IMG/VR virus record: IMGVR_UViG_3300008108_001005 | Coordinates: 1 to 29,139 of that record | Strand: one strand, 5' to 3' | DNA length: 29,139 bases | Source of the DNA: a virus | Part shown: positions 1-24,996 of the stretch, piece by piece | How the letters are laid out: the number at the start of each line of letters is the position of its first letter | Numbering within the stretch: the stretch's first letter is position 1 | Made by a program: the position numbers and the translations under genes | Notes under the pieces: model-generated | Seen by the model: only the letters and a program-made list of their open reading frames with translations | Told to the model about the DNA's origin: nothing | Databases searched by the model: none

Positions 1-794
1 GTGTCGAGTCGGTACTTCATGACCTTCTGGCCGTCGAGGCCGCTGAGCATGCTGATCATGCGAAGGATCACTTGAGCGCTGGACATCTCCAGACTAAAGA
101 ACAGCACCGGGACGCCACGCTGTGCCATGTTCAGCATCTCGCTGATGGCCATGGCAGTCTTGCCCATGCCGGGACGTCCTGCCATGTACATGAGGTCCGT
201 CTTCTGGTGGCCTCCGATCAGCCGATCGACGCACTGGAGTCCTGTCGACACGCCACTCACTCCGCTCGCTTCCTTTTCACGTGAAATGACGTCTTCTGTG
301 ACCTTCTCAGTCAGTTCTCCGACGTGTGAGACTGTGGTCTTCACGTTCGTCGAGAAGATGCCTGTCATCTGGGTAGAGAAACGGTCGAACATCTCGAAGA
401 CGTCAGCGCTCGGATCGTATGCTTGCTCGTTCACTTGTGCACTGATCCGCGCGAACTCTCTCTTCATGTGGTGCTCGCTGAGCATCAGACACCACTGCTC
501 GAGGTTAGCCGATGAGGCGACGCGTGAGGTGAGTCCTGCGATGTATGCCGGACCTCCAGACTGATCGAGCAGGCGCTTTTTGCGCACGTGCTGCGTCACG
601 GTCAGGATGTCGATCGGCTTGTTCTCGATGAAGAGCTCCGCCATCGTCTCGAAGATAGTGGCATGGCGTCCGTCGTAGAAGCGGTCGGCACTCAAGTGAG
701 CGATCGCTGTGCTCATGGCCTTCGTGTCGAGCAGCACGGCGCCCAGCACGAGCTGTTCGAGCTCTGTGTCGTGTGAAGGTATTCTTGAGATCAT
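1..794 (-). CDS. dnaB: Replicative DNA helicase, DnaB family (C-terminus cut by window edge)
   Basis: This gene reads leftward off the window, so only the first 264 codons are visible. The translation begins MISRIPSHDTELEQLVLGAV, a typical DnaB N-terminal (primase-binding) opening. After a linker comes the RecA-like helicase core with Walker A GRPGMGKT at about residues 206-213 and the DnaB signature FFSLEMS at about 232-238. The later Walker B and arginine-finger parts lie outside the window. The protein should be the hexameric 5'-3' helicase that unwinds the phage fork. Its ATG overlaps the stop of the upstream replication gene (ATGA), so the two are translationally coupled, as lambda-type initiator and loader genes often are. 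Seen: motifs and overlap. Known: DnaB family chemistry. Assignment is firm. Confidence 0.95.
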   Translation of the reverse strand, partial: MISRIPSHDTELEQLVLGAVLLDTKAMSTAIAHLSADRFYDGRHATIFETMAELFIENKPIDILTVTQHVRKKRLLDQSGGPAYIAGLTSRVASSANLEQWCLMLSEHHMKREFARISAQVNEQAYDPSADVFEMFDRFSTQMTGIFSTNVKTTVSHVGELTEKVTEDVISREKEASGVSGVSTGLQCVDRLIGGHQKTDLMYMAGRPGMGKTAMAISEMLNMAQRGVPVLFFSLEMSSAQVILRMISMLSGLDGQKVMKYRLD

Positions 795-1420
795 GCTGGT
801 CTGTATTTATCGGCCGCCTGCCATACCGCAGGCACGTCTCCGATCGCCGGGTTGTAGTTAGTTGGGAGGACGATCTCCTTCGGTGCTTGTGGCTTGTGCT
901 CTTCGCGGAACCATACGCCGCGCATCTTTTGTTTCCATGCTCGGACAGGTTCGCCTCGTGAGTCCTTCCAGCCTGCCTCTGCGTAGTAGTGGTATGCTTT
1001 CGTCGCGATCTCCACGCTGTACCCGTTCTCTTTGAAAAACGTCTGGACCTCTTCGAGTGTGGGTGCAAGAGCGGAGCGCTTGCCCTTTACATTCTCATTT
1101 ACATTTACATTTTCATTTTCATTAGCTTCTGCTTTGCTTCCTTTTTGCTTCTCGTTTGCTTCTGTTTTGCTTCTGTTTTGCTTCTCGCTTGCTTTCAACT
1201 TGCTGCCGTCTTGCTTTTTGCCGTTCGTGTAGCGCTTGATGTTAGCCTCCAGCTGCGGACGGATCAGAGTGAAGACAGTCTTCGCGATACCGGTCAGATG
1301 TGGCTCGTTAAAATTCAGCGAGTACTCGCAGATCGCATTCCAGACCTGAGCCTGTGCATCAGTGGGCAGGTCGACGATGGCCTCGTAGAAGCTGCGGTAA
1401 ATTATAAAAGAGTCTCTCAT
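791..1420 (-). CDS. DUF6291-like phage replication protein containing the iteron-like array
   Basis: A 209-aa protein starting MRDSFIIYRSFYEAIVDL, the typical opening of DUF6291 proteins, which sit next to helicase genes in Bacteroidota phages. I start it at 1420 because the family-like sequence begins there and the preceding bases are AT-rich; an in-frame ATG at 1528 would add 36 residues unlike the family. Residues about 1-75 form the conserved domain. Residues about 76-115 are a low-complexity linker of 11-residue repeats (SK.EANEKQ pattern) followed by an Asn/Glu/Val run. Residues about 120-209 are a second basic, aromatic-rich domain (VWFREEHKP). The linker is encoded by strict 11-bp tandem DNA repeats and an AT-rich hexamer tract, listed separately as a possible origin. 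It probably acts as replication initiator or helicase loader; that role is inferred from position and architecture. Confidence 0.8.
   Translation of the reverse strand: MRDSFIIYRSFYEAIVDLPTDAQAQVWNAICEYSLNFNEPHLTGIAKTVFTLIRPQLEANIKRYTNGKKQDGSKLKASEKQNRSKTEANEKQKGSKAEANENENVNVNENVKGKRSALAPTLEEVQTFFKENGYSVEIATKAYHYYAEAGWKDSRGEPVRAWKQKMRGVWFREEHKPQAPKEIVLPTNYNPAIGDVPAVWQAADKYRPA
1091..1126 (-). repeat. AT-rich hexamer tract beside the iterons (candidate DNA unwinding element)
   Basis: Six consecutive hexamers of the type ATTTAC or ATTTTC run from 1091 to 1126, abutting the 11-bp array. This is a short strongly AT-rich stretch inside an otherwise GC-richer region. In the coding direction it follows the iterons, the same order as in the lambda origin (iterons, then AT-rich). 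It encodes the Asn/Glu/Val run of the replication protein. The unwinding role is inferred. Confidence 0.55.
1125..1223 (-). repeat. Nine-unit 11-bp direct repeat array (candidate replication iterons)
   Basis: On the plus strand, units begin with GCT at 1125, 1136, 1147, 1158, 1169, 1180, 1191, 1202 and 1213, exactly 11 bp apart. The consensus is GCTTCTGTTTT; the last three units are degenerate. Because 11 is not a multiple of 3, the repeats are read in rotating frames and give an 11-residue protein repeat every three units. Spacing near one helical turn places all units on the same DNA face. The array lies inside the replication-protein gene, as lambda iterons lie inside gene O. Confidence 0.8.
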
Positions 1421-23127: not shown

Positions 23128-23807
23128 AAAAAAACAAGGGCCCCTTGTATCTGACTCATGCGCATGCCCTTCATCGTCTCGACCTGACGCTTCGCCTCCT
23201 CCATTGTGTACTTTTTGATCTCGTAGTACTGGCCGAGCTGTGCAGTGATCGGACGGAAGAGCACCGCCATGAGCTGAGGCATGAAGCTCCAGTTCACCGA
23301 TGAGCCCTTCCAGATCTCACCAGCCCACGCTTCCGCGTCGACGTGCTCTCTCATCGTGAGCAGGTCCATGTCTGGAATGAAGCCGAAGAGCTGACCCTCC
23401 AGTCTGAAGGTCGGCACGTGTATCGGCGTGCACTCAGACACGCTCCGCTCGATCAGCTCGAGTGTCTTATTGACTGCCTCGTATGTCCAGTTCTCGACCA
23501 CTGTCTTCTTGATGCCAGTGTATGCGCTGATTCGCTCGCTCTCGGTCTTCGCGTTCATGTACGCGATGTACGTCCGCAGCGTGACGTCGTCCAGTGTCTT
23601 CGGTATCTGCATCGCCTCAGCGAAGTCGATCGACACCTCGCGCATGGCCTTGACCTTCGCAGCGTAGTCCGGATCGTCCTCGAGCCAGTTGTAGTGTGTT
23701 GATCGATGTATCCCCGTGTTGTTGGCCGCAGTCGTGACCACGCCGAGCGACTTCTCGAGGTTGTCGATCATTGTTTTCTTGAGTGTCGAGCTGTCGACCT
23801 TATCCAT
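23046..23807 (-). CDS. Fusion of terminase-small-subunit-like HTH with tail assembly chaperone
   Basis: A 253-aa protein of two families. Residues 1-65 look like a terminase small subunit DNA-binding domain: MIDNLEKSLGVVTTAANNTG, IHRSTHYNWLEDDPDY and VKAMREVSIDFAEA. From Met66 (codon at 23610-23612) the sequence MQIPKTLDDVTLRTYIAYMN begins a tail assembly chaperone: FRLEGQLFGFIPDMD (135-149), MPQLMAVLFRPIT (176-188) and GALVFFSTIARD (222-233). The family's second product is reached by -1 frameshift at VFF (225-227). The C-terminal half of a normal small terminase is missing. Met66 falls exactly where a separate chaperone would start, so internal initiation could also yield chaperone alone. 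The start overlaps the methyltransferase end by 8 bases. No other small terminase is seen in the window. Confidence 0.75.
   Translation of the reverse strand: MDKVDSSTLKKTMIDNLEKSLGVVTTAANNTGIHRSTHYNWLEDDPDYAAKVKAMREVSIDFAEAMQIPKTLDDVTLRTYIAYMNAKTESERISAYTGIKKTVVENWTYEAVNKTLELIERSVSECTPIHVPTFRLEGQLFGFIPDMDLLTMREHVDAEAWAGEIWKGSSVNWSFMPQLMAVLFRPITAQLGQYYEIKKYTMEEAKRQVETMKGMRMSQIQGALVFFSTIARDCVTSTLEQELTEAMTEMKAR
23103..23134 (-). promoter_or_regulatory. Programmed -1 ribosomal frameshift site (slippery run plus hairpin)
   Basis: The minus-strand codons are GTT TTT TTT TCG, so both tRNAs can slip back one base within nine consecutive T (23126-23134). Nine bases further on lies a 5-bp hairpin, CACGC-GACT-GCGTG (23103-23116). 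Slippery heptamer, spacing and stem match the classical -1 signal, and both frames carry family-like coding sequence across the site. Confidence 0.8.
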
Positions 23808-24996
23808 GCTGTTCGAGTTCTGGGTTCCACACTTGTCCGTTGATCTTCACCTCGAGCTCTGGACTCTGTTCGATCATACGGTTGATTATGATCTGGCAGT
23901 ATCTCGGCTCCTTCTCCATGCCGTAGCACGTGCGACCGATCTGATCGCTGGCGAGCATGGTCGTCCCGCTTCCCAAAAAGAGATCGAGCACGATGTTGCC
24001 GCGTTCGCTGCTTGCCTCGATCGCATTCGCCACCATCTCGAGTGGCTTCTGGGCGGTGTGATGTTTATCGCTGGTGCGATTGTGTCGCCAGATATTCGGG
24101 CGGCCCATGATCGGACGCTCGCCTGTGATCGTCTTGCCCATGACCTTCGTCTCGATCGGTGAGTGCGTCATCAGCCAAATGAGCTCGTGACATTGTTGAT
24201 ACCACGTGCCGAGGCCTCCGTCACCTTTGTCCCAGACGATCAGATTCTTCGGAGTGAGTTCTGCCTGAGTGAATGCCTTCTGGAGTGAGAAGGCGCTGTG
24301 CCAGTCGCAGCACACATAGACGTGACTGAAGAGCTGGGTGTGTGCTCTCACGGCTGTGAAGATCGTCACGAAAAAAGGCATGGCCATGCTGTCATCGTTT
24401 ACTCCGTGCACTCCGGTGCTATTGCCGAAGAGTGCGTAGGGCGGATCCGTGAAGACCATGTTCGCCTTCTGTGAGTTCATGAGCTTGTCGACCTCTGTCG
24501 TGATCGTGCTGTCTGAGCAGAAGAGTCTATGCGGGCCGATCTCGATCATGTCGCCTTCGACGATCGTAGTGCGCACGCGTTCCGGCTCGACGTAGCTGTC
24601 CGGAGCGTCATCGATCACAGGGTCGAACATGTCCTTCGGCAGGTCCATGCCCCACTCATCGAGCTCGGCTATGTCCCACTCGTTCGCTAACATCTCCCAG
24701 TCCCAGTCTCCGAAGCCGACGTTGTCTTTGATAATAAACTGGCGCTGCTCTTCCGGAGTCAGGTCGCTGGCCTTGATCACTGGGACGTCTGTGATGCCTG
24801 CTTCCTTGCATGCCTTCAGACGCATGTTGCCGCCGAGGACGATCATGTCATCATTAACCACGATCGGACGCAGCTCGAGCATCTTCGGGAAGCTTCTGAT
24901 CGACTCGACGAGGCGCTTGAATTTCGCGTCCTTGATCGTGCGCGGGTTGCTCGGGTTCGGCTTGATCTTGCCCAGTGGTGTGAGTGTGCTGTTCAT
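23800..24996 (-). CDS. ParB-like nuclease domain fused to DNA methyltransferase
   Basis: A 398-aa protein. Residues about 1-100 are a ParB/Srx-type domain (NPSNPRTIKDAKFKRLVESI; VLGGNMRLKACKEAGITDVP). Residues about 140-380 are an amino-methyltransferase: DPPY at 184-187 (motif IV), a WDKG segment, HTAQKP at 313-318, and FLGSGTT at 340-346 (SAM-binding motif I). Motif IV before motif I means the beta-type order; the base is N6-adenine or N4-cytosine. Such fusions are common in phages and probably mark phage DNA against host restriction. A Shine-Dalgarno AAGGAGG precedes the ATG by 7 bases, unusual for this genome. No cognate restriction enzyme is present. Start chosen at the ATGA overlap with the 48-aa gene. 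Confidence 0.92.
   Translation of the reverse strand: MNSTLTPLGKIKPNPSNPRTIKDAKFKRLVESIRSFPKMLELRPIVVNDDMIVLGGNMRLKACKEAGITDVPVIKASDLTPEEQRQFIIKDNVGFGDWDWEMLANEWDIAELDEWGMDLPKDMFDPVIDDAPDSYVEPERVRTTIVEGDMIEIGPHRLFCSDSTITTEVDKLMNSQKANMVFTDPPYALFGNSTGVHGVNDDSMAMPFFVTIFTAVRAHTQLFSHVYVCCDWHSAFSLQKAFTQAELTPKNLIVWDKGDGGLGTWYQQCHELIWLMTHSPIETKVMGKTITGERPIMGRPNIWRHNRTSDKHHTAQKPLEMVANAIEASSERGNIVLDLFLGSGTTMLASDQIGRTCYGMEKEPRYCQIIINRMIEQSPELEVKINGQVWNPELEQHG

Follow-up and report, generated by a model that had tools for sequence, protein, structure and literature searches.

An origin placed inside the gene of its initiator is a known layout. In phage lambda, ori consists of iterons in the middle of gene O and an adjoining AT-rich melting tract, and helicase recruitment is encoded next door (PMC7466680, PMC5043065). 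Phage SPP1 oriL has direct repeats and an AT-rich element within gene 38, which encodes the origin-binding protein; gp39 is the loader, and gp40 is of the DnaB type (PMC6316719). In the RepA_N plasmid pSK41, the origin boxes are central in rep, and the protein combines an N-domain that binds them, a dispensable linker, and a DnaD-like C-domain (PMC5703833). In RepA of the PLE satellite, the DNA-binding N-domain covaries with the iterons, and the C-domain is conserved (PMC8263062). Here, we describe an iteron array in a gene of the DUF6291 family that is, in our assessment, very probably an initiator-specific replication origin lying inside the gene of its own initiator, with binding, melting, and helicase loading all included in that estimate. 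The layout is known from lambda, SPP1, and pSK41; the initiator family, for which we found no description, and the site architecture are its own. The literature search, with most subscription journals outside its scope, found no paper on DUF6291 and no 11-bp intragenic phage iterons, in agreement with an earlier note on this DNA, which knew of no described iteron origin for DUF6291 phages.

The window is a 29,139-nucleotide stretch of viral DNA (positions 1 to 29,139 of IMG/VR record IMGVR_UViG_3300008108_001005). The features discussed below are as follows.

3-794, minus strand: dnaB-type replicative helicase gene (PF00772, E = 3e-27; PF03796, E = 1e-20), which is cut short by the window's left edge

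791-1420, minus strand: DUF6291 (PF19808) replication-initiator gene, 209 aa, assigned from Pfam and phrog matches and gene context

896-1057, minus strand: C-terminal domain (residues 122-175), the proposed helicase-recruiting part, from AlphaFold2 and its replacement by DnaD in relatives

1088-1123, minus strand: AT-rich tract of six AATGTA/AATGAA-type hexamers, the proposed melting element, from codon bias, GC content, and register

1125-1223, minus strand: iteron array of nine 11-bp units, coding-strand core AAGCAA, with cores in three frames

1211-1420, minus strand: N-terminal DUF6291 domain (residues 1-70), putatively iteron binding, from AlphaFold2 and its swaps together with the iterons

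The 791-1420 protein matches DUF6291, its sole Pfam family, with an E value of 1.1e-17 (64.4 bits; cut-off, 27.2) and phrog_15768 with an E value of 1e-32. The stop of its gene and the start of dnaB share 4 bp, and the array lies, as the earlier note had it, within a DUF6291-type gene coupled to dnaB. AlphaFold2 models the N-domain as three helices (pLDDT mostly >95) and the C-domain with a pLDDT of ∼95, joined by a low-confidence linker; at a pTM of 0.39, the model does not give the relative placement of the two domains. Sequence and fold searches of the PDB returned no solved structural relative, and the viral fold matches were other DUF6291 proteins and replisome organizers. All 71 relatives scanned match DUF6291; 11 have a C-terminal DnaD domain in place of the window-type C-domain, and one has a Phg_2220_C domain. 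Among 77 loci, the next gene encodes a DNA primase/helicase in 37 and a DnaB-like helicase in 29 (overlapping sets), and a member of DnaC-like loader families in 9; four DUF6291 relatives are followed by a gp39-like gene (PF11417). Elsewhere in the window (23800-24996, minus strand), a ParB-like N-terminus and an N6/N4 DNA methylase domain are joined in one protein. A plasmid match, NZ_OY725926, was considered as a phage-plasmid and rejected, as it looks like a chromosomal contig carrying a prophage.

Like lambda ori, the DUF6291 array sits inside the initiator coding sequence and adjoins an AT-rich tract. The proposed lambda parallel stands as an analogy of layout but does not extend to the initiator family, the site architecture, or the following gene. 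Pfam finds no lambda O domain in the window protein or in the 71 relatives. The four lambda iterons are 19-bp inverted repeats to which dimers bind, whereas DUF6291 arrays typically hold 5 to 9 direct 11-bp units with 6- to 7-bp cores, and the window units are likewise 11-bp direct repeats rather than 19-bp inverted ones. The next gene in lambda, P, encodes a loader; that of DUF6291, usually a helicase or helicase loader, often encodes the helicase itself. SPP1 shares the repeats and AT-rich element in an initiator gene and, with the four relatives above, a gp39-like neighbor. However, SPP1 gp38 is not known to be a DUF6291 protein, and SPP1 carries a second origin, whereas none was seen in the window or in phage GRNRAP2.

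The earlier note had reported nine units spaced exactly 11 bp apart, and we confirm them at 1125 to 1223: the units start at 1125, 1136, 1147, 1158, 1169, 1180, 1191, 1202, and 1213, each with GCT, and Tandem Repeats Finder recovers the same nine-unit array. On the coding strand, these mid-gene units read, in order, CGGCAAAAAGC AAGACGGCAGC AAGTTGAAAGC AAGCGAGAAGC AAAACAGAAGC AAAACAGAAGC AAACGAGAAGC AAAAAGGAAGC AAAGCAGAAGC, followed by TAATGAAAATGAAAATGTAAATGTAAATGAGAATGTA, which belongs to the hexamer part. Nowhere else in the 29-kb window do as many as three site cores fall at 11-bp steps, and no such lattice arose in 100 Markov shuffles; we conclude that the array is not a product of chance. 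Its lag-11 self-match is 0.88, a value reached by 0 of 200 synonymous-codon recodings (null, 0.54).

We gathered DUF6291 relatives from viral contigs and genomes, leaving 129 nonredundant linkers, and compared the best 33-bp self-match of each at every lag with 200 synonymous-codon recodings. At lag 11, the DNA self-match was 0.708 versus 0.537 for the null, with 74% of relatives individually significant (p < 0.05); lag 22 was significant in 71%, and most of the remaining lags, multiples of 6 and 11 aside, in ∼10%. Two relatives, L004 and L005, have a 10-bp period instead. Core sequence varies by lineage at constant spacing: information is concentrated in cores of 6 to 7 bp (AAGCAAA, AACCAAA, or AACCCCA), and the other bases are nearly free. 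Gaps between cores were exactly 11 bp in 245/275, 86/122, and 39/47 cases in the three core classes, and successive cores were 11, 22, or 33 bp apart in 93% (AGCAA), 80% (ACCAA), and 94% (CCCC class).

These tables come from a core search, which by itself makes the positions covered by the search pattern look conserved. To avoid this bias, we placed the lattice in one orthologue and counted changes in its partner. Third codon positions had changed in 145 of 1,436 cases (10%) in cores and in 422 of 813 (52%) in spacers; the contrast also holds at first and second positions and is about 5-fold overall, although P values are not to be taken literally, because the orthologue pairs are not phylogenetically independent. 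Codon usage follows the same lattice. Lysine is encoded by AAG rather than AAA (72:3) before Gln and by AAA rather than AAG (54:7) after Ser, and serine is AGC in 76/76 cases; thus, synonymous choice for Lys and Ser tracks the DNA unit.

One could instead suppose that selection maintains a flexible, charged, low-complexity protein linker, of which the DNA period is a by-product; such linkers are common in initiators, and the region has low AlphaFold2 confidence. Cores, however, are spread about evenly over the three reading frames (110/120/98, 49/41/59, and 24/18/16 in the three classes), third positions are kept in cores and free in spacers, and the lattice runs through frame changes (see below). 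These observations exclude protein-level selection, to which the lag-11 excess over the synonymous null is also opposed and to which we assign practically no probability. Thus, the iterons are almost certainly under selection at the DNA level, as the earlier note had favored. Its suggestion to ask whether the 11-bp phase outlasts codon drift in relatives gave a clear answer, since the phase is strongly kept; the case that would have spoken against it, amino acid repeats retained with the DNA period lost, is contradicted, because amino acids, sites, and even frame change while the DNA period stays.

Functionless tandem duplication by slippage would account for the variable number of units and for apparent losses of single 11-bp units (70 bp compared with the commonest 81 bp). 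However, recent copies should match over the full unit, whereas here spacers hold mostly 0.1 to 0.4 bits and cores are near invariant, and separate lineages hold the 11-bp spacing with different cores. The contrast between core and spacer excludes neutral duplication, and we regard it as having a negligible chance of being right. A third possibility is intrinsically bent DNA, with helically phased A-tracts used by host nucleoid proteins. A-runs do recur once per turn, but, besides the first A, the most conserved core base is the C (6/615 changed for each of the two) and not the A-run, and the core class moves with the N-domain in the swaps described below; bending as the explanation is very improbable. 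The codon analyses do not separate selection on DNA from selection on RNA, so mRNA repeats bound by an RNA-binding protein or serving translation have to be weighed as well. The 11-bp spacing (10 bp in L004 and L005) fits the helical repeat of duplex DNA, and a palindromic AACCnnnGGTT class of sites suits a DNA-bound dimer; an RNA-level signal accordingly seems most unlikely.

In 8 of 143 tract loci (L014, its copy L015, L018, L037, L044, L053, L054, and L063), the hexamers and C-domain are out of frame with the N-domain; L044 and L063 belong to the palindromic site class. Five of the frame-changed loci show the 70-bp distance, one 11-bp unit short of the commonest one. The lattice continues unbroken over the stop codon in L018, L037, L053, and L054; in L014 (3001-3600), the stop codon lies just past the array. 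The C-domain is under purifying selection in the pairs L053/L054 (dN 0.02, dS 0.21) and L014/L054 (dN 0.19, dS 0.91). In L014, L037, L053, and L054, the front of the array supplies a start codon for the second frame (the ATG within AATGGT), and some frame-changed loci contain an A AAA AAG run, although the required shift is +1 and not the usual -1. Overlapping genes or recoding are possible at these loci. A broader reading, to which we give about even odds, is that DUF6291 defines a large class of phage initiators, so far undescribed, with a fold lacking a solved relative and with genes in which a helical-phase iteron lattice is overprinted on all three frames of the protein code. Even the reading frame would then yield to the lattice: loss of a single 11-bp unit splits the N- and C-domain frames, and some lineages seemingly keep both halves working, through recoding or through a pair of overlapping genes, each reading the origin in its own frame.

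The AT-rich tract begins in register with the 11-bp lattice. In the window, the minus-strand hexamers AATGAA, AATGAA, AATGTA, AATGTA, AATGAG, and AATGTA fill 1088 to 1123, and 4 bp separate the first AATG from the start of the last core; all six hexamers first noted next to the array are present, although the tract begins at 1088 and not at 1091, 3 bp before the described start. Its GC content is 19%, compared to 51% for the gene, and all 6 of its Asn codons are AAT, against a preference for AAC elsewhere in the phage (250:78). A hexamer tract is present in 95 of the 129 relatives and averages 19% GC; the AAT:AAC ratio is 717:64 within tracts and 762:640 outside them. In 26 of 35 AGCAA genes, the tract starts 4, 15, or 26 bp past the last matching core.

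In the window, a fragment ending 1 kb from the array, which lies at the contig edge, GC skew was uninformative. A detrended cumulative minimum was found near the array in four of six DUF6291 phage records: ∼400 bp (up to 410) away in the mutually related GRNRAP2 and CRP19 and ∼60 bp away in the mutually related NrS-2 and NrS-3. The suggested cumulative-skew analysis thus agreed with an origin in four complete, circular phages of two lineages but fit poorly in PJN03 (3.1 kb off) and MT835521 (7.6 kb off; possibly an incomplete record). Among GRNRAP2 minus-strand genes alone, third-position skew changes from -0.068 to +0.126 across the array; in NrS-3, minus-strand genes agree and plus-strand genes disagree, and the skew in NrS-2 and NrS-3 is partly confounded by gene orientation and local composition. 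We take GC skew as support for an origin, not as proof. An autoregulatory operator, or another protein-binding control site of the early operon, could also occupy this place, since binding of the protein to a site in what is probably its own gene could repress transcription or make it pause. Mid-gene is an unusual position for an operator, however, and the in-register AT-rich tract, the replication-gene context, the DnaD C-domains, and the GC-skew minima favor initiation; a control site instead of an origin is unlikely, and the two roles can coexist.

Two pairs of phages differ in the N-domain and array far more than in the flanks. In the Riemerella phages GRNRAP2 and CRP19, identity is mostly 95 to 100% on both flanks but 56 to 71% over the N-domain, the iterons, and the start of the hexamers (31950-32310 in GRNRAP2, L193; 37870-38192 in CRP19, L198), and their iterons differ, being AACC type at 11 bp and TAGCAA at ∼10 bp, respectively. 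The window and L004 have flanks mostly 83 to 93% identical and an N-domain-iteron block of about 67 to 80%, with 11-bp AAGCAA units in the former and 10-bp units in the latter. The C-domain and helicase are retained across both swaps. To judge from these alignments, near-identical phages exchange the N-domain, the iterons, and at least the start of the AT tract together, as a single cassette, which is the pattern to be expected of an N-domain that reads the iterons. In PLE RepA, too, N-domain and iterons change together while the C-domain stays, but the PLE ori lies outside the gene and has semipalindromic iterons of about 30 bp. Among RepA_N plasmids, pPR9 shows a chimeric N-domain/origin swap, as in the DUF6291 cassettes; unlike in these plasmids, no RepA_N domain was found in the window protein or the 71 relatives at an E value of 0.01, and site spacing and sequence differ. 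On the N-domain tree, iteron class changes 32 times, versus 48 when shuffled, indicating clustering with frequent switches nonetheless; we do not take the tree as proof, because class switches are many and some of the clustering could come from shared descent by itself. N-domain residues 37, 26, and 61 are weak candidates for association with iteron class, shared descent being uncontrolled.

From core selection at helical spacing, the register of the tract, the joint exchange of N-domain and array, and the replication-gene context, we infer a model of N-domain binding, tract melting, and origin firing. The DUF6291 N-domain would bind the 6- to 7-bp cores (AAGCAAA in the window), presented on the same helix face every 11 bp; the protein-DNA complex on the array would melt the adjacent hexamer tract, its register to the last core being fixed; and the C-domain would recruit or load the DnaB helicase, the product of the adjoining gene. 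That the N-domain binds the iterons and that these act as an origin is very likely. The model offers a testable function for a domain that is widespread but functionally uncharacterized, and for many uncultured phages from the gut and the environment it would allow probable replication origins to be located from sequence. Few natural examples show as clearly as the overprinted lattice how DNA-level selection can prevail over constraints from codons and even from the reading frame. The swaps of N-domain and iterons supply ready-made pairs with which to map site recognition by a domain of uncharacterized structure.

Some loci depart from the common pattern. L016, L025, L026, L032, L052, L062, and L082 have palindromic AACCnnnGGTT-like sites at wider spacing, still followed by hexamers. 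Muribaculaceae/Prevotella DUF6291 genes (L069, L083, L089, L094 to L096, L098, L099, L108, and L109) have neither array nor hexamers; their next gene is conserved, with a GxxGxGKT-like motif in the eight checked, and in these lineages the origin may have been lost or moved. Initiators with another N-domain and a similar C-domain contain in-gene repeats, by eye, of ∼20 bp in Flavobacterium phage elemoC (L195:2509-3243) and ∼23 bp in Vibrio phage 1.167 (L205:991-1680), which suggests that the in-gene repeat layout extends beyond DUF6291.
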